Source: Ectobacillus funiculus
Lineage (GTDB): Bacteria; Bacillota; Bacilli; Bacillales; Bacillaceae_G
DNA length: 55,265 bases
Assembly (NCBI RefSeq): GCF_004138295.1
Contig: NZ_SCFM01000046.1
Coordinates: 1 to 55,265 of the forward strand
Reading direction: 5' to 3'
In this document: positions 2,893-46,135 of the stretch, one piece after another
Numbering within the stretch: position 1 is the stretch's first letter
Layout of the letters: every line of letters starts with the position of its first letter
Program-made: the position numbers and the translations under genes
The notes under the pieces: generated by a model
Seen by the model: the letters and a program-made list of their open reading frames with translations, nothing else
Database searches by the model: none
What the model was told of the DNA's origin: nothing

Positions 2893-3024
2893 CACTGTAG
2901 AAAAGTATAAATTTCCAGCTAGCAGTGCAATTCGACGTAGCCGGAAATTTTAGGAATACAGTGTAAGTGCAGCTATGCCTCTAGCTTCTCCTAACGGCTC
3001 GCTAATCAGCGAGCTTCTTTCTAC
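2893..3024 (-). repeat. Terminator-linked repeat, copy 1 (full)
   Basis: Full copy in minus orientation. The tail (CACTGTAGAAAAGTATAAATTTCC) begins right after the mnmM terminator. The head (GCTCGCTAATCAGCGAGC hairpin) is at the right end. It lies between convergent mnmM and ytpB. Confidence 0.85.
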
Positions 3025-3074
3025 AATTTGTTTTAAATTGTCGATAACGTTTGAAGCTAATGTACTCCTTTCTC

Positions 3075-4130
3075 CTAAGCCCGCATACGGTACAGCCTCG
3101 CATTCACATAAAAGAAATAGGAAGCAGCTCCGCCATATTTGACGATGCGACGCGCCATTTGCTGCATTTCTTTTTGCTCCGACACCTTTTGGTCAGACAA
3201 ATAGATGCCAAGCAGCCCTTTGCTGATCAAACGGTGAAATTTTGAGTGCGGTAAATCCTGTAGATATCTATCTGTTTCTTGCACAAAATGTTTTAGGCGT
3301 TCAAGCGTTTCTTCACGACTTTCATAATAGCTGCAAAAATTCAAATCGCCACCGAGCCGATCTTCCTCCTGATCAATAAAATAATCAAGCAAAATATGCA
3401 GTCCCTGCAAATAAGGGAAGTAGCCCTTTTTAATTTTGGTAATTTGTGATTCACTTAACTCATGATGGAAGGAATATGCTACTAAACAGAAAATACCGAG
3501 TGTTGAACCAGCACAAGCGGAAAACTCATACCAGCTCATCGCAGGAAGCTGTTCTTTATGTAGAGCAAACCATTCCTGAAGCCGCCCTTCTCTTTCTGTG
3601 AGAGCTACGTGCTTGTGCACCTGCAGGTCACAATAGTAACGAGCAAGCTCCTGCAATATGCCAGCTATTTTCGGATAATGCTTCGTATGCTGCAAAACAT
3701 CCTGGCACGTTCGGACGAGTGCCTCCAAATAACCGCCATCATTCTGATCTTCACGGAAGCGATAATAATTTTCTGTAGCGCTTCCCGGAGTAAGCGCATG
3801 AAGCATCGACTCATGTAATGCTTCAAAATCAAGCGGATCCAAGGAGGTACTGCGGTCGCATAAGTTATCTAAATAATCACTGATGGTTTGATAGGCAACA
3901 ATAAAACGAACGCATTCATTCATCCCCGAGCCTGCCAAAATGGCAAGAATGCCGCCCCCCTCACAATGAAACGTTTTATGTTCAATGCTTGCGAGCGCCT
4001 GCTTACGCAGCTCCTCATTTGGAATACACTGCGCCCGCTCCGTCCATCTCATCAGCTCCTGGTGCACTGGCGGCATTACATTCCGATATACCTTAGACAT
4101 AAGAGATATAGGATTTGTAGGAATCTTCAC
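3075..4130 (-). CDS. ytpB: Tetraprenyl-beta-curcumene synthase
   Basis: 351 aa, DUF2600/YtpB family. YtpB cyclises heptaprenyl diphosphate to tetraprenyl-beta-curcumene in the C35 sesquarterpene pathway of Bacillus spores. An Asp-rich motif is visible at residues 85-89 (DYLDN), and a second acidic cluster, DQEEDRLGGD, lies in the C-terminal third. The start is GTG, nine bases after AAGGAG, which lies inside the end of ytpA; the gap to the ytpA stop is one base. The arrangement ytpA-ytpB is the conserved Bacillus operon. Confidence 0.88.
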   Translation of the reverse strand: MKIPTNPISLMSKVYRNVMPPVHQELMRWTERAQCIPNEELRKQALASIEHKTFHCEGGGILAILAGSGMNECVRFIVAYQTISDYLDNLCDRSTSLDPLDFEALHESMLHALTPGSATENYYRFREDQNDGGYLEALVRTCQDVLQHTKHYPKIAGILQELARYYCDLQVHKHVALTEREGRLQEWFALHKEQLPAMSWYEFSACAGSTLGIFCLVAYSFHHELSESQITKIKKGYFPYLQGLHILLDYFIDQEEDRLGGDLNFCSYYESREETLERLKHFVQETDRYLQDLPHSKFHRLISKGLLGIYLSDQKVSEQKEMQQMARRIVKYGGAASYFFYVNARLYRMRA

Positions 4131-4131
4131 T

Positions 4132-4923
4132 TTACTTCACTCCTTTTACTACATGCACTTCAGTAAAAGCTTTCGCAAACGTAAAAATCTGTTCACGTTC
4201 ATATTCATTAAACAATTCATGATAGCACTCTTTCCATTCCTTATACGCTTTATCACTGCTGTCCACTTCATTAAACCATTTACGTACTTGCATCCGGTCC
4301 ACTAGTTTGTCCTCGTACGCCTGCATAATCAGGAGCGGAATATCCGGAAAGTTCAAAATCCTCTCGTGCGCAATCGAGACCGCTTTTTTCAGCTCAATAA
4401 ACCAGCGCACCGATACCTTTTGCAAAAGTAAAGAATCGTTCTCCATAGCATCGCGAATATCCCTATTGCGCGTTGCCATCTCGGCTGTTAATCGGGAAGA
4501 AAACTTCATTTTTGGTGCAAGCACATTCAATACCTTTGCGGCAGCCTTTAACGGCATAGAGGGCTCTGCCAATACTCCTAAACATGGCGAGCTTAAAATG
4601 ATGCCCTGCACCCGCAGCTCGATTTCCTGAAGAAGACGAATGATAATCAATCCCCCCATACTGTGACCAAGCAAAAAAATAGGAAGATGGTAGTGTCCTG
4701 CTTCTCTAATCCATTTTCGCACCGTATGTATATATTCCTCAAAGCTGTTAATATGTCCTCGTTGTCTTGAAGATGTCCCATGCCCCGGTAAGTCCCCCAT
4801 GACAACATGATAGCCGGCAGCTGTCCACATATCGGCAAGCGCTGTGTAACGGCCATGATGCTCCATCGCTCCGTGAACAATCACCACAACAGCTTTGGCC
4901 GCTTCAGCTTCCCATTTCCACAT
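4132..4923 (-). CDS. ytpA: Lysophospholipase / monoacylglycerol lipase-like hydrolase
   Basis: 263-aa alpha/beta hydrolase. The nucleophile elbow GHSMGG puts the catalytic serine at about residue 88, and an oxyanion-type HGAMEHHGRY motif is near residue 17. B. subtilis YtpA has lysophospholipase activity and was implicated in making the phospholipid antibiotic bacilysocin. The ATG at 4923 is preferred because AGGGGG lies six bases upstream; the ATG at 4929 would touch it. First gene of the ytpA-ytpB operon and divergent from the carbonic-anhydrase-like gene. Confidence 0.85.
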   Translation of the reverse strand: MWKWEAEAAKAVVVIVHGAMEHHGRYTALADMWTAAGYHVVMGDLPGHGTSSRQRGHINSFEEYIHTVRKWIREAGHYHLPIFLLGHSMGGLIIIRLLQEIELRVQGIILSSPCLGVLAEPSMPLKAAAKVLNVLAPKMKFSSRLTAEMATRNRDIRDAMENDSLLLQKVSVRWFIELKKAVSIAHERILNFPDIPLLIMQAYEDKLVDRMQVRKWFNEVDSSDKAYKEWKECYHELFNEYEREQIFTFAKAFTEVHVVKGVK

Positions 4924-4998
4924 GTGCATCCCCCTATTTTCATTTCAGGATATTGTTGATACACTAACAGTACATAAAAAGAAAGGCGGTTTCGATTG

Positions 4999-5514
4999 AT
5001 GATCTATCCATATAAGGATAAATACCCAAGCATCGCAGACAGTGCTTTTATTGCTGATTATGTCACAATTACAGGAGATGTGACAATTGGCGAGTACTCC
5101 AGCATTTGGTTTAACACTATTATCCGCGGTGATGTGTCTCCTACAATTATCGGTGATCGTGTAAATGTGCAAGATTTATGTGTACTCCACCAAAGCCCAA
5201 GATGTGCACTCATCTTAGAAGATGATGTAACAATTGGCCATCAGGTTACTTTACATAGCTGTACAATCCGAAAAAACGCGTTGGTTGGCATGGGCTCTAT
5301 CGTACTTGACGGAGCGGAAGTTGGAGAAGGTGCGTTTATCGGTGCCGGCAGCCTCGTACCGCAAGGAAAAATCATTCCTCCGAATACATTGGCATTTGGA
5401 CGTCCAGCAAAGGTAATCCGCGAACTAACAGAAGAAGATAAACAAGATATGGCCCGCATTCGTCGCGAATATGTAGAAAAAGGACAATTTTATAAAAGTG
5501 TACAAAAGAAATAG
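4999..5514 (+). CDS. ytoA: Gamma-class carbonic anhydrase-like protein
   Basis: 171-aa left-handed beta-helix protein made of hexapeptide repeats. The three zinc-binding histidines of the gamma class are present at about residues 64, 81 and 86 (VLHQSP, IGHQ, LHSC), with the usual five-residue spacing of the last two. The family converts CO2 to bicarbonate or has lost this activity; B. subtilis YtoA itself is not well characterised. The ATG at 4999 is chosen over a TTG at 4996 because AAAGGCGGT lies eight bases upstream. Confidence 0.85.
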   Translation: MIYPYKDKYPSIADSAFIADYVTITGDVTIGEYSSIWFNTIIRGDVSPTIIGDRVNVQDLCVLHQSPRCALILEDDVTIGHQVTLHSCTIRKNALVGMGSIVLDGAEVGEGAFIGAGSLVPQGKIIPPNTLAFGRPAKVIRELTEEDKQDMARIRREYVEKGQFYKSVQKK

Positions 5515-5522
5515 ATCAATAT

Positions 5523-5677
5523 AAGAAAAGCGGACAAGACCCGCCTTTTATGGCAGCATAGGGGTGGACCGGAGTAAAAGGCGCTTTTGCCTTTTGCAGA
5601 AGTTCAGCCCTATGCTGCCATTTTGGGCCTTGGGAGCTAGACATCACCCCGAAAAGTTCTACTTTCTTACAGTGTAA
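5523..5677 (+). repeat. Second repeat family (bcr1-like), copy 1
   Basis: A structured 155-bp element. GGCAGCATAGGG pairs perfectly with CCCTATGCTGCC and encloses an inner AAAAGGCGCTTTTGCCTTTT hairpin. The 3' part (GGGCCTTGGGAGCTAGA, then CACCCCGAAAAGTT) recurs near 31,790, and the 5' AAGAAAAGC recurs at 19,744 and 31,731. The last 16 bases match the tail of the terminator-linked repeat. It resembles the bcr1 elements of the B. cereus group, from memory only. Confidence 0.65.
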
Positions 5678-5930
5678 AAAATGACACTTATCTTAAACAC
5701 GGATCGCCTTTACTCTCGTAGTAAAATGCTGTATTCCATTATGAAACATGCTGCAGCTTGGATATAGAAGTTTGCAGTGAGCTTACGTCCACCAACTTCT
5801 CTCTCCTTTTCTCCTATCACTGTTTAGAAGCCGCCCACTATTCTTTACAATCCCTTATCACTTTCTCAACAAATTCTTATTACAATGGAAATGCAATACG
5901 AAATATACTGACATTAGGGAGGTGCTGCTG
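5678..5930. other. Intergenic stretch without recognised features
   Basis: About 250 bases between the bcr1-like element and the PAP2 gene. It is AT-rich and should hold the PAP2 promoter. No hairpin with a T tract, operator or reading frame was recognised. Confidence 0.4.
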
Positions 5931-6470
5931 ATGATAGCACGTTCTATCAACGCCTTATATGAAATAGAGTGTTGCATTTTCAAAGGAATTAACCGTTATT
6001 TTGAGCGAAAGGTGCTAAACATATACTTTCGCACAATCACACACGCGGGCGGGGCAAAATGCACCATTCTGTCTGTATTGCTCCTCATGCTCCTATCAAA
6101 GGGCACAATTCACAAAACGGCAATAGTAAGCATGGCTTCCCTTGCTATCAGCCATATTCCGGTGCAGATTTTCAAGAAGCTGTATCCACGAAAACGCCCG
6201 TATATGATGATTGTTGGAACAAAGCATCATTTGAATCCGTTGCAAGACCATTCCTTTCCATCCGGGCATACGACTGCTATTTTTTCGGTCGTCATCCCAT
6301 TCATTGTTGATGTACCTGCATCCATATTTTTGCTTCTTCCTCTTGCCTTAAGTGTCGGTGTATCTCGTATTTATCTTGGTCTTCACTATCCATCCGATGT
6401 GCTGGCAGGCATGTTTCTTGGAACGCTCACTGGCATTCTGTCTTACTTTCAAATTATACAACTACTGTAA
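5931..6470 (+). CDS. PAP2-superfamily membrane phosphatase
   Basis: 179 aa with about four to five membrane segments. All three PAP2 signatures are present: K-x5-RP around 83-90, PSGH at 110-113 and SR-x5-H-x3-D ending at 156. Such enzymes dephosphorylate undecaprenyl pyrophosphate, phosphatidylglycerol phosphate or other lipid phosphates at the outer face of the membrane; the substrate cannot be told here. The ATG at 5931 lies seven bases after GGGAGGT. The glycosyltransferase gene follows after 16 bases, so a two-gene lipid/glycan operon is likely. Confidence 0.85.
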   Translation: MIARSINALYEIECCIFKGINRYFERKVLNIYFRTITHAGGAKCTILSVLLLMLLSKGTIHKTAIVSMASLAISHIPVQIFKKLYPRKRPYMMIVGTKHHLNPLQDHSFPSGHTTAIFSVVIPFIVDVPASIFLLLPLALSVGVSRIYLGLHYPSDVLAGMFLGTLTGILSYFQIIQLL

Positions 6471-6486
6471 GTGGGGAGGGCGTCTT

Positions 6487-7629
6487 ATGAAAATCGCTAT
6501 CTTTACTGATACCTTTATACCACAAGTAAACGGGGTTGCGAAAACATTAGAACGCTTCACAAGATACCTGCAGTGTAACGGTATAGAATACTATGTATTT
6601 GCGCCTGAAAATACCACCGAGGACAGCTTTGTTACAAATGTCAAAAAGATGAAAAGCCTTCCGCTTTCTATCTATCCGGAATGCAGACTGGCGATTCCAA
6701 ATCCAGTCTTTATAAAAAAAGAATTGCAACGTTTTCAGCCTGACCTCATTCACATCGCAACCCCCTTCAACATGGGACTGTTTGGCATGTATTACGCGAA
6801 GAGGTTAGGAATCCCACTTGTCGGATCGTATCACACTGATTTTGATGCTTACTTAAAACACTACAAGGTCGAGTTTCTCTCTCGCTTTCTCTGGAATTAT
6901 TTACGCTGGTTCCATAGCTCTCTTCAAAAAACATTCGTTCCTTCCCATGAAACACTAAAACAGCTACAGAACAAAGGATTCCGAGACTTGCATATTTGGG
7001 CACGCGGTGTTGATTGTAACCTCTACCATCCACATTATGAGAAACAAACCGTGCGTGATACATACGGCATCGGAGCGAAGTATATTCTCTCATACGTGGG
7101 ACGGATGGCTCCCGAGAAGGATATCGATACACTGACAGAAATTATTCAAAAAATAAACCAAACGCTTGGAGACTCTGTTCACTGGCTCCTCGTCGGAGAT
7201 GGACCGCTCACAGAAGAAATGAAAGCAAATGTAACTAAAAACGTAACATTCACTGGCTATCTAAAAGGAAAAGAACTCGCGGCTGTCTACGCTTCCTCAG
7301 ATCTCATGGTGTTTCCATCGGCAACAGAAACATTTGGCAACGTTGTGCTAGAATCTCTTGCTTCCGGTACGCCTGTAATTGGAGCGAACGCGGGGGGTGT
7401 AAAGAATATTTTGCAGCATGGCACAACAGGATATCTATGTAACCCAAAAGACACTGATGCATTTTGCGCTGCAATCGAGGATCTTCTCGATTCTGGTTCC
7501 ATAATTGAGAAGATGGGACAATCCGGACGAGAATACGCCTTGTCACAAAATTGGGATACGATTTTCGAAAAGCTTCTCGGTCATTACAAGGATGTCATTC
7601 AAGCACCTCAAAATAAATTGTTAGCATAG
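6487..7629 (+). CDS. GT4-family glycosyltransferase
   Basis: 380 aa, GT-B fold. The N-terminal domain begins MKIAIFTDTFIPQVNGV, typical of GT4 transferases that glycosylate lipids (mannosyl- or glucosyltransferase type). The C-terminal Rossmann domain has the EX7E motif with glutamates at about 281 and 289. Donor and acceptor are unknown. The ATG at 6487 is chosen because GGGGAGGG precedes it; the upstream in-frame start at 6352 would overlap the PAP2 gene. The linkage to a lipid phosphatase suggests a membrane glycolipid or teichoic-acid role (inference). Confidence 0.85.
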   Translation: MKIAIFTDTFIPQVNGVAKTLERFTRYLQCNGIEYYVFAPENTTEDSFVTNVKKMKSLPLSIYPECRLAIPNPVFIKKELQRFQPDLIHIATPFNMGLFGMYYAKRLGIPLVGSYHTDFDAYLKHYKVEFLSRFLWNYLRWFHSSLQKTFVPSHETLKQLQNKGFRDLHIWARGVDCNLYHPHYEKQTVRDTYGIGAKYILSYVGRMAPEKDIDTLTEIIQKINQTLGDSVHWLLVGDGPLTEEMKANVTKNVTFTGYLKGKELAAVYASSDLMVFPSATETFGNVVLESLASGTPVIGANAGGVKNILQHGTTGYLCNPKDTDAFCAAIEDLLDSGSIIEKMGQSGREYALSQNWDTIFEKLLGHYKDVIQAPQNKLLA

Positions 7630-7664
7630 TTAAAAGCATGTTCATTCAAATTCTTTTCTCAATC

Positions 7665-7784
7665 AAGAAAACTCGCCAATTGGCAAAGATAGAGGCACAG
7701 TTGCACTTATATTATATTCCTAAAATTCCTATCTATCCAAGTGATCTGACTCCGAGCTGCAAATTTATACTTCCTATAGTGCAG
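7665..7784 (+). repeat. Terminator-linked repeat, copy 2 (full)
   Basis: Diverged full copy. Head AAGAAAACTCGCCAATTGGC; tail ATTTATACTTCCTATAGTGC ends just before the terminator hairpin at 7786. Confidence 0.75.
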
Positions 7785-7785
7785 A

Positions 7786-7812
7786 AAAGCAAAGGCCGCT
7801 CACCTTTGCTTT
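7786..7812. terminator. Bidirectional terminator
   Basis: AAAGCAAAGG pairs with CCTTTGCTTT, with T tracts on both sides. It separates the GT4 gene from the end of the convergent nitrate reductase operon. Confidence 0.75.
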
Positions 7813-7815
7813 TTA

Positions 7816-8007
7816 TTAATTATATTCTAATTTTCTCCAGTTGATATATGCCGTCAATGCTACAATCACTGAGGCTATACTCACAATCATACAGGTTGTC
7901 ACTGCGCCATATTCCCTGCCGTAGTACGCTTCGATCGTATGCTGTAACGATATAACATTCACGATAAGTGAAGTCATAATGATAATTACCCACCCTCGTT
8001 TACTCAT
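7816..8007 (-). CDS. 63-aa two-helix membrane protein of the reductase operon
   Basis: A small protein with two hydrophobic segments (about residues 5-22 and 33-52), a positively charged start (MSKRGW) and a basic tail. I do not recognise the family. The ATG overlaps the end of the Rieske gene by eight bases, and the Rieske gene's GGAAGGAAG serves as ribosome binding site, so translation is coupled. It is the last gene of the operon, directly before the terminator. It is probably a membrane subunit or assembly factor of the complex (inference). Confidence 0.7.
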   Translation of the reverse strand: MSKRGWVIIIMTSLIVNVISLQHTIEAYYGREYGAVTTCMIVSIASVIVALTAYINWRKLEYN

Positions 8008-8530
8008 GACGATACTTCCTTCCAACCGCATATACAGCACCGCCAGCTACCTCTAGCTCGATTAGCGGTAATTCTCTTTGCGGCGGTCCTTCCATCGGAT
8101 GTCCTGTTTTAATATTAAAAAAACCGCGGTGGCATGGACAAACAAGAATGTCACGCTCTTTCTCATAAAACACCGGGCATTGCAAATGCGTACATTTATT
8201 ATTGTACGCCACAAGCTCCCCCTCCACTGTATGCACCAAGATAGCGGTATCCCCTTCTGTCGGATAGCTAAAGTTTACAGAGCTCCCTTTTGGCAAGGAA
8301 GCTAAATCCGCAATCTTTACACGCGCATCCTTATCTGCCTTTTTATTGGCACTGACAATTTGGAACGGGATAGTAGCAAGGCCGAGTGCCACCGTCGCTC
8401 CTGTCATGGATTTAATAAATGCACGGCGGTTATACTTGACATCATCCCCACGCTTTAAATTTTCTATTAGATTCATCATATCGTGCTCTGTTTCTTCACG
8501 ATGACGCTTTTGCTTCCCCTGTTCACTCAT
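8000..8530 (-). CDS. Rieske [2Fe-2S] protein with Tat-type anchor
   Basis: 176 aa. A twin-arginine motif (NRRAFIKS, Arg 35-36) is followed by a hydrophobic segment at about 41-60, so the C-terminal domain is likely outside the membrane. The Rieske ligands are C113/H115 and C131/H134, and C118 and C133 are placed for the disulfide seen in bc1-type Rieske proteins. That disulfide fits an exported domain. The gene lies between the ferredoxin gene and the small membrane gene. It probably passes electrons between quinol and the molybdoenzyme complex, but the direction and partner are inferred. Confidence 0.85.
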   Translation of the reverse strand: MSEQGKQKRHREETEHDMMNLIENLKRGDDVKYNRRAFIKSMTGATVALGLATIPFQIVSANKKADKDARVKIADLASLPKGSSVNFSYPTEGDTAILVHTVEGELVAYNNKCTHLQCPVFYEKERDILVCPCHRGFFNIKTGHPMEGPPQRELPLIELEVAGGAVYAVGRKYRHE

Positions 8531-8556
8531 CGAATGTTCCTCCCTTTCAAACGGGA

Positions 8557-9099: not shown

Positions 9100-9112
9100 A
9101 GTATAATCCTCC

Positions 9113-11254: not shown

Positions 11255-11268
11255 CTTTACTCACCTCT

Positions 11269-12417: not shown

Positions 12418-12459
12418 GTCGTTTCCCCCCTTATTTTTAAAAGCCGCCTTGTTGCCTTC

Positions 12460-12502
12460 ATTATACGCATGAGTGAGCAGAATCACTGTGACGCATGTCA
12501 CA
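12460..12502 (-). promoter_or_regulatory. FNR box at -41.5 plus -10 of the reductase operon
   Basis: TGTGACGCATGTCACA (12487-12502) is a perfect TGTGA-N6-TCACA FNR palindrome. Exactly 21 bases further on the minus strand is a perfect TATAAT (12465-12460). This places the box centre at -41.5 from the predicted start at about 12453, the class II activator position. Confidence 0.82.
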
Positions 12503-12537
12503 TATTTATTTGACAATGTAGTGACAGTTGCCCTTAC

Positions 12538-12597
12538 CTAAAGTTTCATACTACGGCAAATTCACTTCTAGCTGGAAATTTATACTTTCTTAAAGCG
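12538..12597 (+). repeat. Terminator-linked repeat, copy 3 (3' half)
   Basis: Partial copy keeping ACTTCTAGCTGGAAATTTAT and the tail ACTTTCTTAAAGCG, abutting the fnr terminator. It sits between fnr and the FNR-activated promoter. Confidence 0.7.
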
Positions 12598-12603
12598 AAA
12601 AAA

Positions 12604-12627: not shown

Positions 12628-12629
12628 GC

Positions 12630-13319: not shown

Positions 13320-13340
13320 TGATTTGCTCCCTTCTGCACG

Positions 13341-17428: not shown

Positions 17429-17500
17429 GTATTATCATTTAAATTTCTTGCTATGTCGAGTTCGCTTCTAGCTGGCCCTTTATCCAATCTTAAAGTGTAA
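17429..17500 (+). repeat. Terminator-linked repeat, copy 4 (3' half)
   Basis: Partial and diverged: AAATTTCTTGCTATGTCGAG, TTCGCTTCTAGCTGG and a tail CTTAAAGTGTAA that ends just before the mobA terminator. Confidence 0.65.
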
Positions 17501-17506
17501 AGAAAC

Positions 17507-19743: not shown

Positions 19744-19950
19744 TTAAGAAAAGCGGCTACATCCCGCTCTTGCTCCCGCAGTAAAACATCCTTTGCATAA
19801 AATGCACGGCTTTAGCGAAATTAATCCTTCATGGAGGCTTTCCCTTTATTTTCACCATAGAAGGCGCCTTTTTCCTTTGGTGTTGAAGTTATTTTGTGAA
19901 GGAGTAAGCCATGGGAGCTAGATAGCAATCCAAAAATCCCCTTTTTGTTG
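19744..19950 (+). repeat. Second repeat family (bcr1-like), copy 2 (diverged)
   Basis: Shares TAAGAAAAGCGG at the 5' end, AGAAGGCGCC followed by a T tract inside, and CCATGGGAGCTAGAT near the 3' end with the copies at 5,523 and 31,731. It is longer than they are. A partial terminator-linked repeat follows directly. Confidence 0.5.
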
Positions 19951-19963: not shown

Positions 19964-20045
19964 GACACATCTCTACTATATCCCTAAAATTTTCGACTAC
20001 GTCGAATTGGCATCGGGCTAGAAATTTATGCTTTCTTACATTGAA
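19964..20045 (+). repeat. Terminator-linked repeat, copy 5 (3' half)
   Basis: TCCCTAAAATTTTCGACTACG, TCGAATTGGC and the tail GCTTTCTTACATTG, abutting the narK terminator. Together with the bcr1-like copy it fills the moaA-narK gap. Confidence 0.75.
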
Positions 20046-20047
20046 AA

Positions 20048-21610: not shown

Positions 21611-22117
21611 ATGTTAAAGACGAGAATTACATATCAGACTGGCAATCCCGCGGAGTATATCCAAGAGCTTACCACAAGCGCTTTAGATAAATTGGTTACG
21701 ATAGAGGTACGTGAGGAAACGAAGGAGGTTTCTGTTTCTTTTTCCGAAAAGCTATCATACGCACAATACGCCTTAATCCATCGTTTTCTTGTTATACTGG
21801 CAGAAAAAATAAATGGACGCATCTTCGATAAAGGCAGCATGCTCGGCTATTTGCAAGATGGCACCCCCGCTTATATCGTAACAAACTGGGATGAGTGGAG
21901 CCGCTTTTTACATGAGAAAAAATTGCACTCCTCTCAAGGAGAATATGTCCATGTATACGCGGACAGCGAACTCCTTGAAAGCGGTATTTTATTGGAGTAT
22001 GAAATGAGCAAGGAAGGAGAGGCATTTGCAATTACAAGCTGCACATTACTTACTTCAGAAGGGGAAGTAACCCTTCATGGGGAGGCGCTTGTATTAGAGG
22101 CGGAGCAGAGATTTTAA
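21611..22117 (+). CDS. 168-aa protein of unknown function, FNR-controlled, facing narK
   Basis: No family recognised. The protein is soluble and acidic, without signal peptide, membrane segment or cysteine motif. The middle (FLVILAEKINGRIFDKGSML) looks like a globular alpha/beta domain. The ATG lies eight bases after AAGGGGGC. It has its own FNR box at -41.5, so it should be made under oxygen limitation with narK and the reductase. A role in nitrate reduction, for instance as a maturation or regulatory factor, is inference from regulation and position only. Confidence 0.75.
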   Translation: MLKTRITYQTGNPAEYIQELTTSALDKLVTIEVREETKEVSVSFSEKLSYAQYALIHRFLVILAEKINGRIFDKGSMLGYLQDGTPAYIVTNWDEWSRFLHEKKLHSSQGEYVHVYADSELLESGILLEYEMSKEGEAFAITSCTLLTSEGEVTLHGEALVLEAEQRF

Positions 22118-22250
22118 AGAAAACTCGCCGATTGGCAAGCCCTGCCTTTGGGTGAAGACAAAGGCTTAGTTGCACTTATACTTTATTCCTAAAATTTCTG
22201 GCTACGTCGAATTGTCTTCTAGCTAGAAATTTATACTTTCTTAGAGTGTA
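22118..22250 (+). repeat. Terminator-linked repeat, copy 6 (full, tandem left)
   Basis: Full copy from AGAAAACTCGCCGATTGGC to TTAGAGTGTA, directly after the stop codon of the gene at 21611. It joins the next copy head to tail with no spacer. Confidence 0.88.
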
Positions 22251-22379
22251 AAGAAAACTCGCTGACTGGCGAGCCGGTAGGCGAAGACAGAAGCGTAGTT
22301 GCACTTATACTGTATTCCTAAAATTTCTAACTACGTCGAATCACTTCTAGCTAGAAATTTATACTTTTCTACAGTGTAA
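22251..22379 (+). repeat. Terminator-linked repeat, copy 7 (full, tandem right)
   Basis: Full copy from AAGAAAACTCGCTGACTGGC to TCTACAGTGTA, abutting the hairpin at 22381. It forms a direct tandem with copy 6, with visible substitutions between them. Confidence 0.88.
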
Positions 22380-22380
22380 A

Positions 22381-22405
22381 AAAATCCCCACCAAGCGGGG
22401 ATTTT
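22381..22405 (-). terminator. Terminator between convergent genes
   Basis: AAAATCCCC pairs with GGGGATTTT; seven T residues follow on the minus strand, so it mainly serves the small gene at 22430. Confidence 0.78.
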
Positions 22406-22429
22406 CATCGGTTCTATCAATAAAACGAT

Positions 22430-23680: not shown

Positions 23681-23814
23681 AAAGAAAACTCGCCGACTGG
23701 CGAGCCCTGCCTTTGGTCGAAAACAGAGGCGTAGCCCTACTTATACTGTATTCCTAAAATTTCTCACGACGTCGAATTGGCTTCTAGCTAGAAATTTATA
23801 CTTTCTTAAAGTGT
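23681..23814 (+). repeat. Terminator-linked repeat, copy 8 (full)
   Basis: From AAAGAAAACTCGCCGACTGG to CTTAAAGTGTA, ending next to the hairpin at 23818. It lies upstream of the DUF2785 gene on its non-transcribed side. Confidence 0.88.
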
Positions 23815-23817
23815 AAT

Positions 23818-24247: not shown

Positions 24248-24330
24248 GCTGATTGGCGTAGCTCTCCTTATACTGTATTCCTAAAATTTCCGGCTACGTC
24301 TCACTTCTAGCCGGAAATTTATACTTTTTC
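24248..24330 (+). repeat. Terminator-linked repeat, copy 9 (partial, head eroded)
   Basis: Keeps CTGATTGGCG, TATACTGTATTCCTAAAATT and CTTCTAGCCGGAAATTTATA; the tail is eroded to CTTTTTCAA just before the metK terminator. Confidence 0.75.
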
Positions 24331-25713: not shown

Positions 25714-25823
25714 CTCTTATCGTTCAAAGCATTGCTGCCTTGCATCAGGTTGAGCACCTTTACCTTTTCGGTCAGGTTGCTGGGCTTCATAGGGCCTGTC
25801 CCTCTGCCAGCTCGGGATAAGAG
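25714..25823 (-). promoter_or_regulatory. SAM (S-box) riboswitch
   Basis: On the minus strand P1 forms between CTCTTATCC and the downstream CGATAAGAG. Between them are the S-box core segments GAGGGACAGGCCC-like and CCCAGCAACC, then GTGCTCAACCTGATGCAAGGC, in the correct order. High SAM favours the terminator just downstream and lowers metK expression. Confidence 0.95.
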
Positions 25824-30522: not shown

Positions 30523-30642
30523 GTAAAGAAAACTCACCAATTGGCGAAGACAGAGGCGTAGTTGCACTTACACTGTAATCCTAGAATTTCCGACTGCGTC
30601 AAATTCGCTTCTAGCTGAGAATTTATGCTTCCTACAATGTAA
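30523..30642 (+). repeat. Terminator-linked repeat, copy 10 (full)
   Basis: From GTAAAGAAAACTCACCAATTGG to CCTACAATGTA, overlapping the foot of the terminator at 30642. It lies between convergent ytlD and ytkD. Confidence 0.85.
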
Positions 30643-30684
30643 TACAAACAGACCTAGCCTATAAATGACTCGGTCTGTTTGTAT
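30642..30684. terminator. Bidirectional terminator, ytlD/ytkD
   Basis: ATACAAACAGACC pairs perfectly with GGTCTGTTTGTAT across a 17-base loop. Confidence 0.7.
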
Positions 30685-31730: not shown

Positions 31731-31843
31731 GTAAGAAAAGCCTGTTTCGCTGTCTCAAAGAAAAGGGAAGGCCAATAACTGAAAAAAGGCGGGCCTTGGG
31801 AGCTAGATATCACCCCGAAAAGTTATACTTTCTTATCTTGCTT
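31731..31843 (+). repeat. Second repeat family (bcr1-like), copy 3 (short)
   Basis: AAGAAAAGCCTG at the 5' end and GGGCCTTGGGAGCTAGATA with CACCCCGAAAAGTTATACTT at the 3' end match the copy at 5,523 almost base for base; the centre is shortened. A full terminator-linked repeat follows with no gap. Confidence 0.65.
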
Positions 31844-31961
31844 GTAAAGAAAACTCGCCGATTGGCGAAGATAGAGGTGTAGCTGCACTTACGCTGTATT
31901 CCTAAAATTTCCGATTATGTCGAATGGCTTCTTGCTGGAATTTTATACTCCTACAGTGTAA
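31844..31961 (+). repeat. Terminator-linked repeat, copy 11 (full, not next to a terminator)
   Basis: From GTAAAGAAAACTCGCCGATTGG to CTACAGTGTA. This and the left tandem copy are the two copies without a directly adjoining terminator hairpin. It lies upstream of ytzI. Confidence 0.85.
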
Positions 31962-36321: not shown

Positions 36322-36367
36322 CATCATCACTCCTTTCTACGGATTGCGGTAAAATTTTGATAGTAAC

Positions 36368-36497
36368 GAAAACACGCCGATTGGCGAGCCCCGCTCTTGG
36401 GCGAAGACAGCGGCGTAGTTGCACTTATACTTTATTCCTAAAATTTCCAACTACGCCGACTGGCTTCCAGCTGGAAATTTCTACTTTCTTACAGTGA
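36368..36497 (+). repeat. Terminator-linked repeat, copy 12 (full)
   Basis: From GAAAACACGCCGATTGGCG to TTACAGTG, abutting the menB terminator. It sits inside the men gene cluster, between menB and menE. Confidence 0.87.
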
Positions 36498-36500
36498 AAA

Positions 36501-36530: not shown

Positions 36531-36536
36531 TTTCTA

Positions 36537-37355: not shown

Positions 37356-37356
37356 G

Positions 37357-39937: not shown

Positions 39938-41331
39938 TTCATACTTCCTCCTAATGCGGATAGCATAGGTTTGAACTTCATTTTTGTTTCTTCATACTCC
40001 ATGTGCGGCTGTGAGCTTTCTACAATACCGCACCCTGCAAACAAGGAAGCATTCGCCCCCCGTATAAGTGCAGAACGAATCCCAACCGCAAACTCTCCAT
40101 TTCCCTTATAGTCAATCCAACCAATTGGACCTGCATACAAACCGCGGTCTAGATCTTCTTGTTCACGAATCAGCTCCATCGCCTCTTCGCGCGGGGTACC
40201 TCCCAGAGCAGGAGTGGGGTGCAATTTCTCTACCATTTCAAACAAATTGCACACCCCCCTCCCTTCTACTGGCGTATAGAGATGAATTAGGTTCTTTGTC
40301 CTCATAACTCCGGGCTGATGCGGAATATTTACCTCAGTGCAAACGGATGTCATAACCTTACGGATCATATCTACAACATAGCGATGCTCTACTAAGTTTT
40401 TCTCATCCTGCAGCAGTTCTGCTGCATTCTGTTCATCCTCCTCTTCCGTATTGCCGCGTCCAATAGAACCGGCTAAGCACATAGAGGTGAACAATTGGTC
40501 TTCCTTTTTAACGAGCCTCTCAGGCGTTGCACCAAGAAAGCAGGTATCTTGATAATCAATTGAAAAAATATAGCAATCCGGCTGTCCGATGCGTAATGCT
40601 TGAACAATATGCGCCGAATCAAATTCATTTTCTGCTGTTAATCGCAATTCACGCGCTAATACAACCTTTTGCACACGTCCTTGCTTCATTTCACTTTGAA
40701 CGGCTTGAATTGCTTCCATCCAGCTTTTCGTTTGTACCTCATGTTGGCTAACAATAACGCTTCCTTGTTCTGACAAAGGCTGTCTGCTATGCTGGAGCAG
40801 CTGTTCCTCCATATTTTGCATACGCTCATACAGATCCTCTGCACAATCATCATGCCCTACAAGCTGATTAATTGTCAGCCAAGATTCTCCTTCCTTCATT
40901 GTAAGCAGGAAGGACGGCAATACTAAGACTGTATCGGAAAGCGTCTCCCAAAGCTGCGTTTTCTGCTTTAGCGGATCAAAGGAAAATCCGCCAAACAGCA
41001 GAGGTCCTGTCCCAAACGAATAGGCCGGTCCGTGCACAATGACACCATTTAGAAGCTGCTGCCATCGATTCTGCGTATCCTGAAAGCGCTTTTGAGAAGA
41101 ATTTGCTATAGTGAAAGCAGATCCAATTCCTGCGAAAACTATATGTTGTTCTGGATCGGACCAATAAAACCGCTCCGTGTACCCGAATTGTTTTGCGGCC
41201 GCATAAAAAAGAAGCGGATCTGTCCACTCTACCTTCTTTACGGCACTGACTAATACTTTCGTGTCTATTGCAGCTTGTTGTATAGCAGTAAGGAGCGATT
41301 GATGTAATCCCTTGTGTTCTGTTCGAAGCAC
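39934..41331 (-). CDS. menF: Isochorismate synthase MenF
   Basis: 465-aa chorismate-binding enzyme with the conserved C-terminal stretches [17 protein letters not shown], and [15 protein letters not shown]. It starts the menaquinone branch from chorismate. The start is GTG, eight bases after AAGGGGG. First gene of menF-D-H-B; menA lies divergently about 190 bases away. Confidence 0.94.
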
Positions 41332-41524
41332 TTTGATTTCCCCCTTACTCGGGTAAACATACTGAAATTACCCTTGTATTTTTAAGATACACCCCGAACG
41401 AAACCTGTGTCAATCTTTAGCATTTTTGCGGAAATTACAGCCTTCTGAAGGAAAACGTTGACACTGTATACGTCGGTTACCTAAACTTAATTTTGTACTT
41501 TATGTGACAAAAAGGAGGATTCTT

Positions 41525-42478
41525 ATGAATATGAAAATAGAAACGAACTCCTCTTTTACAGAGCCGAAAACAAAGCAGCGAAAAAGCTGGCATGTATGGT
41601 GGAACTTACTTCGTCCACATACGCTAACAGCTGCATTTATTCCGGTTTTTATCGGAACTGTTTATGCACTTCACATCGGAGGGATCGATAAGATAAATCT
41701 TCCTCTTTTTTTTATGATGCTTCTTGCCTGTATTCTCATACAAGCGGCAACGAATATGTTCAATGAATATTTCGATTATAAAAGAGGTTTGGATCATGAA
41801 GGCTCTGTAGGAATTGGAGGCGCGATTGTACGCGAAGGCATCCAAGCAAAAACAGTCTTATATTTGGCATATAGCTTCTTTGCTGCTTCTATGCTAATCG
41901 GCATTTACATTTGTATACATTCGAGCTGGTGGCTTGCCTTAATCGGTCTTCTTAGTATGGCCGTCGGTTATTTTTACACGGGCGGTCCTCTGCCAATTGC
42001 TTATACACCGTTTGGTGAAGTAACAGCTGGATTATTTATGGGCGTTATTATTATCGGGATCGCTTTCTTTATCCAAACAGGAACGATTGTACCGGAGATT
42101 ATCATCCTGTCGGTTCCAACCTCTATCTTAATTGGAGCTATTCTGCTTTCGAACAACATTCGCGATTTAGACGGGGATCAAGAAAATGGCCGTAAGACGC
42201 TGGCTATTCTCGTCGGGCGTCAAAATGCGATTCGCGTGCTAGCTGGGATGTTCATCATCTCTTATATTTGGTGTGTCGCACTTGTTTTTACAGGCATGGT
42301 ATCGGCTTGGATTTTTATCGTATTTCTGAGTATTCCTAAAGCAATCGCTGCGACAAAAGGCTTCATTGGCAAACGCATTCCGCTTGAAATGATGCCGGCA
42401 ATGAAAGCGACTGCGCAGACGAACACCATTTTTGGATTCCTGTTTGCACTTGGTTTATTATTGGATTATCTCTTTTAA
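41525..42478 (+). CDS. menA: 1,4-Dihydroxy-2-naphthoate polyprenyltransferase MenA
   Basis: 317-aa integral membrane UbiA-type prenyltransferase with about eight to nine helices. The Asp-rich motifs NMFNEYFDYKRG and NNIRDLDGDQENGRKT bind the prenyl diphosphate. It yields demethylmenaquinone. The ATG at 41525 follows AAAGGAGG. Divergent from menF, as in the B. cereus group. Confidence 0.93.
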   Translation: MNMKIETNSSFTEPKTKQRKSWHVWWNLLRPHTLTAAFIPVFIGTVYALHIGGIDKINLPLFFMMLLACILIQAATNMFNEYFDYKRGLDHEGSVGIGGAIVREGIQAKTVLYLAYSFFAASMLIGIYICIHSSWWLALIGLLSMAVGYFYTGGPLPIAYTPFGEVTAGLFMGVIIIGIAFFIQTGTIVPEIIILSVPTSILIGAILLSNNIRDLDGDQENGRKTLAILVGRQNAIRVLAGMFIISYIWCVALVFTGMVSAWIFIVFLSIPKAIAATKGFIGKRIPLEMMPAMKATAQTNTIFGFLFALGLLLDYLF

Positions 42479-42504
42479 AACGCAGGCCTTACCTGCGTTT
42501 TTTT
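42478..42504 (+). terminator. Terminator of menA
   Basis: AAACGCAGG pairs with CCTGCGTTT followed by further T residues. Confidence 0.82.
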
Positions 42505-42628
42505 ACACTTTAGGAGGATAAAATTCCAACTGGAAGCGTATTGAATCGTTAGAAAGTTTTAGAAATAAAGTGTAAATACAGCTATGCTTCTCTCTTTGCC
42601 TAACGGCTCGCCAATCAACGAATTTTAG
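42503..42628 (-). repeat. Terminator-linked repeat, copy 13 (full, minus orientation)
   Basis: The tail (ACACTTTAGGAGGATAAAATTCC) begins in the T tract of the menA terminator; the head (ACGGCTCGCCAATCAACG) is at the right. It lies upstream of the YteA-like gene. Confidence 0.78.
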
Positions 42629-42726
42629 CAACCGAATTGAATGTTGGCTTACACGCTTCCCTTCCTTATATTTTTAGCAAAATGGTTCATACTACAAAAG
42701 AGATTACACAGAGGAAGGTGACCAGT

Positions 42727-43467
42727 ATGCTTTCTCAACAACAGCTGGACGAGTTCAAAGCAACGCTGCTCCATGAAGAAAAAGAACTGGAATACAGCAT
42801 TCAAATGCATCACAATAACGATAAAGATGGCATGCGCGACGCTACAAGTGAGCTTTCTCTATACGACAACCACCCAGGCGATACAGCGACCGATTTATTT
42901 GAGCGAGAAAAGGATTTTGGCATCATTGAATTTCGTGAAAAGCAACTAGCGGATGTAAGATATGCATTAGAAAAGATCGAAAATGGCACATATGGTATTT
43001 GCGAGGTATCTGGCGAAGAGATTCCTTTTGAGCGTTTAGAAGCTATGCCGACTGCTACAACGCTGATAGAACATACACATAATAAGCTCCGATTGGATAT
43101 ACGTCCAGTTGAGGAAGAGGTGTTGTACCCGCCTTTCGGTATTCATGATATGGACAACAAAAGGGAAAATGTTGCGTATGATTCCGAGGATAGCTGGCAG
43201 GATGTAGCGAATTACGGAACATCGGAGACGCCTTCTGATTTTGAAAGACGCGATAGTAAGCACTATAACTCCATGTTTAATGAATCTGATGAGCCCATAG
43301 GATATGTAGAGTCATTTGAAAACTTCATCGGAACAGATATATATGGAAAAAATCCACAGGTCTACCCTGGAGACGACCATGAGCTGTATGAAGATATGAT
43401 TGATGACTACGACGAGCAAGCCTATCGAGGAGACCTCTCAGAAAACAGTTATTATCCGAGACAATAG
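42727..43467 (+). CDS. DksA/TraR-like protein of the YteA family
   Basis: 246 aa. The N-terminal half resembles the YteA/DksA coiled-coil (MLSQQQLDEFKATLLHEEKEL, then EREKDFGIIEFREKQL). The zinc-finger region (YGICEVSGEEIPFERLEAMP) keeps only one cysteine, so zinc is probably not bound. The C-terminal 100 residues are very acidic, with many Asp, Glu and Tyr. YteA-type proteins are sporulation-associated in Bacillus (recollection). The ATG at 42727 follows GAGGAAGGTG; the longer upstream frame enters the repeat region. Confidence 0.8.
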   Translation: MLSQQQLDEFKATLLHEEKELEYSIQMHHNNDKDGMRDATSELSLYDNHPGDTATDLFEREKDFGIIEFREKQLADVRYALEKIENGTYGICEVSGEEIPFERLEAMPTATTLIEHTHNKLRLDIRPVEEEVLYPPFGIHDMDNKRENVAYDSEDSWQDVANYGTSETPSDFERRDSKHYNSMFNESDEPIGYVESFENFIGTDIYGKNPQVYPGDDHELYEDMIDDYDEQAYRGDLSENSYYPRQ

Positions 43468-43532
43468 GACAGTTGTTTCAAACAATATGAACGATACACC
43501 TTTCAATATAGTTGCTTGCCATAATACAAAAA

Positions 43533-43556
43533 GAGCATTCCATTACTGGAATGCTC
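43533..43556 (-). terminator. Terminator of the cold-shock gene
   Basis: GAGCATTCCA pairs perfectly with TGGAATGCTC across a short loop, followed by T residues on the minus strand. Confidence 0.8.
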
Positions 43557-43565
43557 ATTATCTTA

Positions 43566-43766
43566 TTACTTCTTTACTACGTTAGCAGCTTGTGGTCCGC
43601 GGTTTCCTTCAACAACTTCGAAAGAAACTTCTTGGCCTTCTTCTAAAGTTTTGAATCCTTCTCCTTGGATTGCGGAGAAGTGAACGAATACGTCGTTTCC
43701 GTCTTCTGCTTGGATAAATCCGTAACCTTTTTCACCGTTAAACCATTTTACTTTACCTACTTGCAT
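43566..43766 (-). CDS. Cold-shock protein (CspA/CspB type)
   Basis: 66-aa OB-fold protein with RNP1 (KGYGFIQ) and RNP2 (DVFVHF). It binds single-stranded RNA/DNA and acts as an RNA chaperone. The ATG at 43766 follows AGGAGGT. A promoter about 160 bases upstream gives a long 5' leader, as is typical of csp genes. Confidence 0.94.
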
Positions 43767-43927
43767 TGTAGTACCTCCTAAATATAAGAAAAAAATGAAA
43801 CTATTTACCCCACATATAGGAGGATATAAAGAAAACGATCTGTTCCAAGCATGTGACGAAAACATCAAACCATGGGTAAAGACGTGCTTTATTTCCGAAA
43901 GACTATATGTAGTTCAATAGTTACTTT

Positions 43928-43957
43928 AATTTATCATGAAAACGTATATTCAGTCAA
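43928..43957 (-). promoter_or_regulatory. Sigma-A promoter of the cold-shock gene
   Basis: TTGACT (43957-43952), 18-base spacer, TAAATT (43933-43928) on the minus strand. It implies a 5' leader of about 155 bases before the csp start codon, the usual site of cold-shock thermoregulation. Confidence 0.55.
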
Positions 43958-44087
43958 CTGAAAACTACGGATTGAATTGTAAAAAATAACAAAAAATTCA
44001 TTCCACTCTTACTGTCTTTTCGATAAAATGGAGATATACATACAGGATAATAGGCAGGGCAGCAAACAACAGGAGAGGTGAATTAAA

Positions 44088-44873
44088 ATGAAGGCACATG
44101 AAATTGATTACAAGCTTTACGGAGATGACATGCAATTCGTCGAAATTGAGTTAGATCCTCGTGAGAGCGTCATCGCAGAAGCTGGTGCGATGATGATGAT
44201 GGAAGATGGCATTGACATGGAAACAGTGTTTGGTGACGGCTCTGAGCCAAAAGGACTGTTTGGAAAATTAATGGGTGCTGGAAAACGAATGGTAACTGGC
44301 GAAAGCTTGTTTATGACTGTTTTTACAAATAACAGTAGCGTGAAACGCCGTGTATCCTTTGCAGCATCCTACCCAGGAAAAATTGTTCCAGTAGACTTAA
44401 CGCAATACGGCGAAAAGATTATTTGTCAAAAGGATGCATTTCTTTGCGCAGCAAAAGGAGTCTCTATCGACATTGAGTTCACAAAAAAGCTGGGCACAGG
44501 CTTCTTTGGCGGGGAAGGCTTCATTATGCAAAAGCTTGAAGGTGATGGCTTGGCTTTTATGCATGCTGGAGGAACAATATACAAACGTGACCTGCAGCCA
44601 GGAGAACGTCTCCGTATTGATACAGGCTGCCTTGTAGCAATGACAAAGACAATCAACTACGATATCCAATTTGTCGGCAATGTGAAAACAGCTTTATTCG
44701 GTGGAGAAGGACTATTCTTTGCCACATTAGAAGGTCCAGGTACTGTCTGGATTCAATCCTTAACCCTCAGCCGTTTAGCGCAGCGTATCGCTGGCTCCGC
44801 AGCAGGTGTTAAAGGCGGTGGAGAAGGCAGTGTTCTTGGAGGAATCGGTCGTATGTTAGATGGGATCGATTAA
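44088..44873 (+). CDS. AIM24/TIGR00266 family protein
   Basis: 261 aa, of the TIGR00266 (AIM24) family of beta-rich proteins: [15 protein letters not shown] near residue 28, [14 protein letters not shown] and [15 protein letters not shown] repeats, and a Gly-rich C-terminus. Widespread in bacteria, function not established. AGGAGAGG precedes the ATG. Single gene with its own terminator. Confidence 0.87.
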
Positions 44874-44878
44874 CAAAG

Positions 44879-44908
44879 CGAACCAGCATCGAAAGCGATG
44901 CTGGTTCG
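44879..44908 (+). terminator. Terminator of the AIM24 gene
   Basis: CGAACCAGCATCG pairs perfectly with CGATGCTGGTTCG, then TTTCATATTT. Confidence 0.82.
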
Positions 44909-44918
44909 TTTCATATTT

Positions 44919-45042
44919 CACTGTAAGAAAGTATAATTTCCAGCTGGAAGATCCTTCGATGTAGCAGGAAATTTTAGCAATACAGTATAGATGTAACTAT
45001 GCCCCCGTCTTCGCCCAAGTACAGGACTCGCCACAGTTTTCT
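44919..45042 (-). repeat. Terminator-linked repeat, copy 14 (full, minus orientation)
   Basis: The tail (CACTGTAAGAAAGTATAATT) starts ten bases after the AIM24 terminator stem; the head (GGACTCGCCACAGTTTTCT) is at the right, before the lipase gene. Confidence 0.82.
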
Positions 45043-45194
45043 CCCGCCCATTCTCATCGATTGATATGTTTTTTTAAAAGCAAGTACAGCTTTGTCAGGT
45101 TGGGCTCCAGCATCCAGTCTGCATGATTGCCTCTGTCTCCTCATATATTGGATAGTGTTTGCGCATCACGATATAGGGCTAAGGGGGGTCCAAT

Positions 45195-45920
45195 ATGTTA
45201 TTTTCAGCCGCCGACAAAGAGCTCGCCATGCTTCTGGCTGACTGCTGCGAGTTAACGTATGAACAGTACAAACAAAACGGTGTATTTCAACCGCCAAAAG
45301 GCTTTCAGCATATATGCGGTTTTCAAGCCCAAGCCATCGGAACAACGGAATGGTTCGGCTTTATTGCCGAATCAGAACAAGAGATTGTTGTCGCATTTCG
45401 CGGGACACAGTCCGACACTGATTGGATTGCCGATTCTCTCATCAACCAGCGTATCTATCCGTACACAGCAAACAGCGGTCTCGTTCACAGTGGCTTTCTT
45501 TCTATCTACGAAACGTGTCGTGATTCTATTATGGAAACGCTTGTCACGCTTCCAAAGCAAAAAAGATTACTTGTAACCGGTCATAGTCTAGGAGGCGCTC
45601 TTGCCATCCTCCATATGCTTGATGCTAGAGTAAATACTTCATTTGCAGATTATATGATGTATAATTTCGCTGCCCCCAAAACAGGCGATATCGCTTTCCG
45701 CAACTACTACAATTTACAGGTCTCCAAAACCTTCCGGATTGTCAATCTTTTTGATGTGGTCCCACTCCTCCCGCCACACAAGATTAAGTTTGAAAAAGCA
45801 TCTCAAGAATATGAATATTTTCATGTTAACAATAGCATCACATTTACCTCAAACCTTGGATCTATATCTAAAAATCATCACATTACCACCTATAAGTCGG
45901 CAATTGAACGCTGGCCATGA
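45195..45920 (+). CDS. Lipase class 3 family protein
   Basis: 241-aa alpha/beta hydrolase of the class 3 lipase type. The nucleophile Ser131 is in GHSLGG, Asp187 in NLFDVVP and the histidine at about 228-229 in KNHHITTY; AFRGTQSDTDW precedes as the oxyanion part. No signal peptide is visible, so it is probably intracellular. Substrate unknown. Starts after AAGGGGGG. Confidence 0.86.
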   Translation: MLFSAADKELAMLLADCCELTYEQYKQNGVFQPPKGFQHICGFQAQAIGTTEWFGFIAESEQEIVVAFRGTQSDTDWIADSLINQRIYPYTANSGLVHSGFLSIYETCRDSIMETLVTLPKQKRLLVTGHSLGGALAILHMLDARVNTSFADYMMYNFAAPKTGDIAFRNYYNLQVSKTFRIVNLFDVVPLLPPHKIKFEKASQEYEYFHVNNSITFTSNLGSISKNHHITTYKSAIERWP

Positions 45921-45970
45921 AAGGTAGACGACATCCTCAAACAGTTTGCCAAATAGAGATAGATATCCCC

Positions 45971-46103
45971 AGAAACCTCGCCGATTGGCGAGCCTGTCCT
46001 TGGGCGAAGACAGAAGCGTAGTTGCACTTGCACTGTATTCCTAAAGTTCACAATTATGTAAAATGAACTTCTAGCTGGAAATTCATACTTTCCTATAGTA
46101 CAA
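45971..46103 (+). repeat. Terminator-linked repeat, copy 15 (full)
   Basis: From AGAAACCTCGCCGATTGGCG to CTTTCCTATAGTA, abutting the glgP terminator; lies between convergent lipase and glgP. Confidence 0.83.
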
Positions 46104-46104
46104 C

Positions 46105-46135
46105 AAATAACCCGCGCTATCGACGCGGGTTATTT
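46105..46135. terminator. Terminator of the glg operon (bidirectional)
   Basis: AAATAACCCGCG pairs perfectly with CGCGGGTTATTT; it lies between convergent lipase and glgP. Confidence 0.75.

Follow-up and report, generated by a model that had tools for sequence, protein, structure and literature searches.

The IS91 family, with its ISCR members and the Helitrons of eukaryotes, and the group IIC introns are the described systems that come closest to the repeats reported here. Classical IS91 has a tetranucleotide as its target. IS91-type elements are reported to nick and transfer one strand and to leave no direct repeats, and a hairpin near the 3′ end of the related Helitrons to serve as transposition terminator (PMC9330008, PMC4778049). 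Group IIC introns are reported to insert just after Rho-independent terminators and to prefer the lagging-strand template (PMC8919778). We analysed a 55,265-nt stretch of Ectobacillus funiculus DNA (the window), which forms a single contig of a draft assembly totalling 5.45 Mb and carries 15 copies of a repeat that we call type I. This repeat shows a target preference, precise junctions and a fixed orientation to a neighbouring hairpin, and its ends follow a plan common to elements with zinc-finger and Y2 domains. In our view type I probably belongs, as a non-autonomous element, to a group of IS91-family rolling-circle (HUH/Y2) transposons that targets a stem-loop with a T-tract behind it.

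Type I resembles the IS91 family in leaving no clear direct repeats (PMC9330008, PMC4778049), and further in its 3′ hairpin and in having putative autonomous relatives with a zinc-finger and Y2 transposase. It differs in that the repeats are mostly ~95–160 bp long, non-coding and present in high copy, and in that the target is a hairpin plus T-tract and not a fixed short sequence beside one end; we therefore favour a separate clade over classical IS91. Group IIC introns are reported to use the same target, right behind intrinsic terminators and on the same side (PMC8919778); type I, at ~130 bp and with neither an Rfam intron match nor a reverse transcriptase (RT) gene, has no visible relation to them. 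The bcr1–bcr18 repeats of the Bacillus cereus group are likewise short, dispersed and mobile-looking. A TTTAT motif is reported for bcr repeats, and the first bcr element is reported to be confined to that group (PMC6542083); type I often yields CTTTAT at one end and, set against bcr1 by description only, differs in that its family reaches other orders of the class. Five element queries against B. cereus-group plasmids gave no match. Miniature inverted-repeat transposable elements (MITEs) and repetitive extragenic palindromes (REP/BIME) are also small, non-autonomous dispersed repeats; type I differs from MITEs in lacking terminal inverted repeats and clear target duplication, and REPs go with Y1-type RAYT proteins. 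REPs are described as measuring 20–40 bp (PMC3733652).

Type I repeats and adjoining hairpins

We define the F strand as the one on which the tail TATACTTTCTTACAGTGTAA stands last, and the R strand as its complement. The F-strand consensus of 28 aligned copies is AAAGAAAACTCGCCGATTGGCGAGCC...TTAGGCGAAGACAGAGGCGTAGTTGCACTTATACTGTATTCCTAAAATTTCCGACTACGTCGAAT..ACTTCTAGCTGGAAATTTATACTTTCCTACAGTGTAAA, with a length of ~120–140 bp. On R the order is terminator hairpin, T-tract, element 5′ end (CACTGTAGGAAAGTATAAATTTCC...), 3′ hairpin, TTTTCTTTA and flank; about six T stand right before the element, and no terminal inverted repeats were seen by eye. A profile built from type I copies and run over the window identified 11 full and four partial copies (the latter at 12525, 17440, 19968 and 24255), as an earlier note made from the sequence had recorded, with ends shifted by up to about 13 bases. 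The copies are listed below together with two matches to a second repeat family that has similar ends (type II, with bit scores); free energies (ΔG, kcal/mol) are those of the hairpin adjoining the type I tail.

2891–3017, minus strand: type I, full; tail-side hairpin at about 2853–2888 (plus strand), ΔG −16.3
5522–5674, plus strand: type II, 139.6 bits
7665–7784, plus strand: type I, both ends kept, first hairpin region partly missing; ΔG −14.9
12525–12601, plus strand: type I, partial (tail half); ΔG −15.4
17440–17501, plus strand: type I, partial (tail half); ΔG −13.8
19968–20047, plus strand: type I, partial (tail half); ΔG −13.5
22116–22252, plus strand: type I, left copy of a tandem pair, adjoining the hairpin end of the next copy; ΔG −12.7
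22250–22380, plus strand: type I, right copy of the tandem pair; tail-side hairpin at about 22380–22406, ΔG −15.4
22256–22275, minus strand: type I own end seen from the terminator side, a hairpin then TTCTTTA, terminator-like; start point of the left tandem copy
23681–23817, plus strand: type I, full; ΔG −20.7
24255–24330, plus strand: type I, partial (tail half); ΔG −13.9
30525–30643, plus strand: type I, both ends kept, first hairpin region partly missing; ΔG −22.7
31791–31840, plus strand: type II tail half, with only a few bases between it and the type I copy whose left end is at 31846; 44.4 bits
31846–31962, plus strand: type I, first hairpin region partly missing; the sole copy of the 15 without a strong tail hairpin, ΔG −5.3
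36365–36500, plus strand: type I, full; ΔG −17.2
42502–42626, minus strand: type I, full; ΔG −13.1
44916–45040, minus strand: type I, full; ΔG −26.0
45971–46103, plus strand: type I, full; ΔG −19.6

The earlier note had placed the tail beside a terminator, always on the same side, in 13 of the 15 copies. The fixed side holds, and the count rises to 14, each with a hairpin of −12.7 kcal/mol or stronger lying 0–9 nt from the element: of the two exceptions named, the copy at 31844 indeed lacks a strong hairpin, whereas the left tandem copy adjoins one, that of its neighbour.

To the window we added all of contig C24 and the first 120 kb of C114 (444 kb in total), and a further 400 kb of C82; these hold 150 and 60 profile matches, respectively (E ≤ 1e-4). 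For each copy we scored the best single hairpin ending no more than 14 nt from the element on its 5′ side on R, and called it strong at ΔG ≤ −10 kcal/mol. In the 444 kb, 134 matches retain the tail and 132 could be scored, of which 26 are followed by another copy and 106 are non-tandem. A strong hairpin adjoins 67 of the 106 non-tandem copies, compared with 73 of 600 intergenic positions picked at random and 86 of 600 chosen to match in T-tract (Fisher P = 1.4e-24 against the matched set), and occurs on the opposite flank in 5 of 104. Among tandem copies, 21 of 26 have a hairpin of ΔG ≤ −10, supplied by the neighbouring copy. The independent C82 sequence gave 24/47 versus 69/500 (P = 1.5e-8), and 50 loci of named Bacillales genomes, which were picked by element pattern and are thus not random copies, gave 24/50 versus 61/500 (P = 8e-9); the tail was retained in 54/60 and 53/54 copies of these two sets, of which 7 and 2 were tandem and one had too little flank. 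The association proposed in the earlier note is therefore well beyond chance. It is strong yet not universal: a strong hairpin is missing beside 37% to 52% of the non-tandem copies. The intergenic placement of the copies also largely extends to the wider sample, in which 3 of 173 element sites overlap an open reading frame (ORF) of at least 90 amino acids by more than 40 bp, such ORFs covering 0.76 of the sequence.

These results bear on whether type I might work as a terminator or insulator module that selection retains at the ends of genes, in which case its clustering at terminators would reflect survivorship. The element does have a terminator-like end of its own, and gene 3′ ends should tolerate insertion. 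The T-tract-matched and opposite-flank controls, together with the spacing of 0–14 nt in one orientation, nevertheless indicate target choice, and many relatives lack a copy at a given site. A module of this kind is compatible with transposition; as the sole cause it is contradicted by the precise empty sites described below, and we regard it as very unlikely.

We do not claim a strict coupling to the replication strand. By hand count, copies that run in the direction of replication number 43 of 45 in genome G015 (47 chromosomal copies listed, two near skew switches set aside) and 24 of 28 in G008. Relative to ORF orientation the excess is significant in G015 (P = 5e-4) and not in G008 (P = 0.11), and E. 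funiculus has no excess (139/169 sites versus 510/646 ORFs, three skew-switch loci omitted). Compared with predicted terminators (0.62 and 0.57 co-directed), both G015 and G008 exceed expectation.

Empty sites, junctions and arrays

The earlier note had suggested a comparison with orthologous empty sites, and Gottfriedia relatives provide them, with precise junctions beside pre-existing hairpins. We joined the flanks of 11 sites from two Gottfriedia-group genomes without the element and searched 13 Gottfriedia genomes. Alignment was tried at six sites and placed 24 empty sites at five of them, a match at L071 being left unplaced. The junction is exact to the base at L065 (seven rows) and L086 (four of five rows, the fifth having diverged), and blurred by small differences at the other loci. 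In one example, CCACA/AAAAATA became CCACA[TAAAG...AAAGTG]AAAAACA. By eye, the hairpin and A/T-tract are already present in the empty state at four of the five loci (L062, L065, L068 and L066), and the empty state of L086 shows no obvious strong hairpin. Target duplication is absent at L086; L065 and L068 are ambiguous for a TAAA duplication because the target itself reads TAAA. Insertion is thus precise, without terminal inverted repeats or clear target duplication.

Of the readings that the earlier note had offered, insertion into terminator T-tracts is supported by the hairpins already standing in empty sites, by the enrichment over T-tract-matched controls in three data sets and by IS91-family elements with similarly built ends at such sites. 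Copying together with the terminator is contradicted wherever empty relatives already carry the hairpin.

The far end of type I, a hairpin plus TTTTCTTTA, is itself terminator-like. On R, tandem junctions read hairpin-TTTTCTTTA-CACTG, so that the next copy begins where a terminator would place it. Type II, for which we used a 158-nt profile made from only two copies, has 11 matches in the 844 kb of combined sample; seven end at a type I far end (one of them 4 nt off) and one stands before a gene-type hairpin. The element's own end therefore behaves like a landing site for type I and type II, which would account for the arrays. There are 20 arrays of at least two units in the 844 kb, the longest of eight. 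Neighbouring units of long arrays often score alike, and unequal exchange probably lengthens arrays later. A type II-like remnant (64% identity over 45 nt) at window positions 19906–19950 shortly precedes the partial type I copy that begins at 19968.

IS91-family relatives and the source of mobility

We searched sets of 1, 12 or 27 genomes for four candidate engines: Y1 transposase (IS200/IS605), reverse transcriptase (RVT_1), Y2 transposase (IS91) and the TnpB zinc domain. None occurs in every element-rich genome searched. The Y2 family PF04986 was found in one of 12 genomes, that of Caldibacillus thermoamylovorans, as transposase pieces matching Zn_Tnp_IS91 (85.9 bits) and Y2_Tnp (97.5 bits). 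This gene starts directly behind a type I end (CTCGGACGCCCGAGTTTTCTTTA/AAAGATAAGAAAGTATAAAATTTC, the slash marking the junction); it is followed by CCGGGCGTACTTTGCCCGGTTTTTCTTA, and the element has its own 3′ hairpin with TTTTTCTTA. The left end of the Caldibacillus element resembles the type II left end on R (ACAAGATAAGAAAGTATAA).

The closest relatives of this transposase, the best 13 of 3,647 matching records, have 44–49% identity (31–32% for the next listed) and lie on plasmids of Pediococcus, Lacticaseibacillus and Enterococcus. We covered the surroundings of 8 of the 13, and of a distant Cetobacterium record whose ends could not be placed. Another insertion occupies the expected left end in three loci (L347, L352 and L353), and two further loci (L345 and L346) represent one shared site. 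All five distinct left junctions, including that of Caldibacillus, follow a hairpin (−10.1, −14.4, −20.2, −14.5 and −21.3 kcal/mol), with 6–7 T in the last 8 nt; at the Caldibacillus and Enterococcus avium junctions this hairpin finishes with TTTTCTT(T)A and so resembles the terminus of a further family member. Each of the nine right ends consists of a hairpin plus TTTTCTTA (−10.4 to −18.9 kcal/mol for the five scored), and several of these sequences are near-identical. The word GRAAGTATAA, which belongs to the type I left end and was picked after the ends had been seen, occurs three times in 31 kb of insertion sequence loci (0.37 expected), each time beginning at the ninth base of a left end. 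The domains and the plan of the ends agree, and the right ends match in all nine cases; likeness to type I at the left ends is short and not significant by profile. Searches of the open-licence literature for a link between IS91 and terminators as target listed nothing on point.

If type I belongs to this group, its target would be a stem-loop and the T-tract behind it, which in most cases means an intrinsic terminator, with the hairpin perhaps recognised as folded single-stranded DNA. Transposition would proceed by rolling circle, with a Y2 protein moving the small elements in trans. Read on the hairpin-first strand, the product would consist of hairpin, T-tract, 5′ end (CACTGTAGGAAAGTATAA...), structured body, 3′ hairpin, TTTTCTTTA and old flank, and its target-like 3′ end would draw further type I and type II copies into head-to-tail arrays.

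Several observations weigh against this assignment. PF04986 is absent from E. funiculus and from five Gottfriedia-group genomes with 25–48 element matches, and a tblastn search with both transposase pieces against 2.7 Mb, including 844 kb of E. funiculus, returned only the Caldibacillus gene itself, whose reading frame is interrupted. The helper may therefore have disappeared, have diverged beyond the reach of PF04986 or be present only transiently (for example, on plasmids), or the engine may be another. GRAAGTATAA is missing from two of the five left ends. A 24-nt profile of the type I left end gave E values no better than 0.5 and 2.2 at two of the insertion sequence left ends, which shuffled sequences also reach (best of 100 shuffles, 15.8 bits); its best match (E = 0.0096) lay elsewhere, in a type I-like neighbour element of Caldibacillus. 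A replication-strand bias beyond that of genes, possible under single-strand targeting, appears in only one of three genomes. Finally, the conserved and possibly pseudoknotted body is left unexplained by the model, and the base pairs in which both sides change number five, not above shuffles (193/500).

The fold of that body, derived from 34 copies from several genera, has five helices, one of them pseudoknotted with another. In these copies 91.8% of cells are paired compared with 34–45% in slid controls, a comparison biased by the fold having been derived from the tested sequences themselves, and 35 cells changed on both sides versus a shuffled mean of 12.1 (0/500 shuffles). The clearest compensated helix pairs AAATTTCC..GGAAATTT in E. 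funiculus and AAATTGGC..GCCAATTT in Gottfriedia. Rfam searches of the window and of distant relatives found no family for the element, and no intron match in the window.

A structured body with compensated helices is also what might be expected if an element transcript were placed behind terminators by a group II intron-type RT, in the manner of a short interspersed element (SINE), and the target is that of the group IIC introns. RVT_1 matches occur in 20 of 27 genomes, and element-bearing G007, G010, G015, G017, G018 and G022 have RTs of 429–486 amino acids, which we take to be the size of group IIC enzymes. On the other hand, G013 has 33 copies and no RVT_1 match, and the two group II introns of E. 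funiculus (L203 and L204) have long RT ORFs of 561 and 605 amino acids, presumably not of IIC type by their size. With no Rfam intron match in the elements, and ends whose plan fits IS91-type elements instead, we think RNA-mediated spread unlikely. Truncations that keep the tail look commoner than those that lose it, but were not used as a sign of reverse transcription: shortened copies receive poorer scores, and internal deletions account for several of them.

Descent from an IS200/IS605 element with a Y1 transposase seems very unlikely. Such elements have no terminal inverted repeats, make no target duplication and use single-stranded targets, and type I likewise inserts precisely without inverted repeats or clear duplication; decayed or partial Y1 genes are present in E. 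funiculus, and stop-free ones in some element-bearing genomes (among them G004, G026 and G032). However, element-rich G010, G014 and G015 have no Y1 match, copy-rich E. funiculus (G000), G008, G011, G013, G018 and the Caldibacillus genome (G039) have only broken or partial Y1 genes, and stop-free genes occur in G001 and G003, which have no copy. Element pieces were found in 2 of 32 Y1 loci (L201 and L239), in neither case bounding the Y1 gene.

Abundance and host range

In the 844 kb of E. funiculus sequence, 210 copies occupy 173 sites, or roughly one site for every four ORFs. Extrapolation gives ~1,350 copies for the genome, with density varying more than twofold between sampled stretches; a whole-genome covariance search returned at least 150 matches. 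Counting E. funiculus itself, the model found matches in 25 of 60 related genomes, representing 14 of 45 genera, and in 12 of 121 genomes sampled throughout the class, representing 10 of 73 genera, under stricter filters that lose weak matches. Hosts among the matches listed include Gottfriedia, Cytobacillus, Caldibacillus thermoamylovorans, Fredinandcohnia and Bacillus fonticola. Three other species of the same genus (G001, G002 and G003) gave no match, and their emptiness against an estimated thousand or more copies here may mean that the element arrived or multiplied in a burst in this lineage, or that the other species lost it.

Other orders contributed 11 matching genomes, of which we sampled 9, at 20 loci in total. 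These relatives are mostly 70–135 bp long and keep the first module, TAAAGAAAACTYGGC...TTAGTTGCACTTATACT, or a close variant. Their right-hand hairpins often differ in sequence yet remain complementary (ACTATCA..TGATAGT, ACTGTCG..CGACAGT and ACTTGTTA..TAACAAGT). A hairpin follows in many of them (by eye, unscored), and one of these genomes (G110) carries an array.

Taken further, and only tentatively, the Bacilli might harbour, throughout the class, a superfamily of rolling-circle elements that seek out terminators, comprising autonomous IS91-like elements and several non-coding families. Its members would have one end code in common and read a hairpin plus T-tract as target whatever its sequence; bearing that target at their own end, they would stack into arrays. 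Many gene ends would be settled in some genomes, each such gene gaining a spare terminator, and the folded body could be a recognition structure, as DNA or RNA, through which tiny elements hijack the transposase.

The repeats suggest a possible mechanism for abundant unexplained intergenic repeats in Bacilli, and would make a second kind of mobile element that lands at intrinsic terminators, after group IIC introns. They also offer a simple rule for the origin of tandem arrays, in that one end of the element doubles as its target. Should IS91-type enzymes indeed read hairpins irrespective of sequence, HUH transposases would have a new way of choosing their targets.

One Gottfriedia-group query found no match in phage records; six viral pattern matches lack the rest of the element, look like chance and were not accepted as copies. 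The conserved words GTAGTTGCACTTATACT and TTAGTTGCACTTATAC had no match in the open-licence literature, and a description in a subscription journal may exist. In genome G139 (locus L329, 355–550), a match to the guanidine-I riboswitch (51.9 bits, below the gathering score of 63) encloses a relative of the element, which seems to have inserted into it; by eye this relative stands beside a hairpin that is not a gene-end terminator. At L239 (2890–2947, genome G026), a copy broken off near its middle is apparently joined straight to a terminator A-tract and might be a truncated insertion. Elsewhere in the window are a SAM riboswitch (25714–25823, minus strand) and four tRNA genes (54928–55265).

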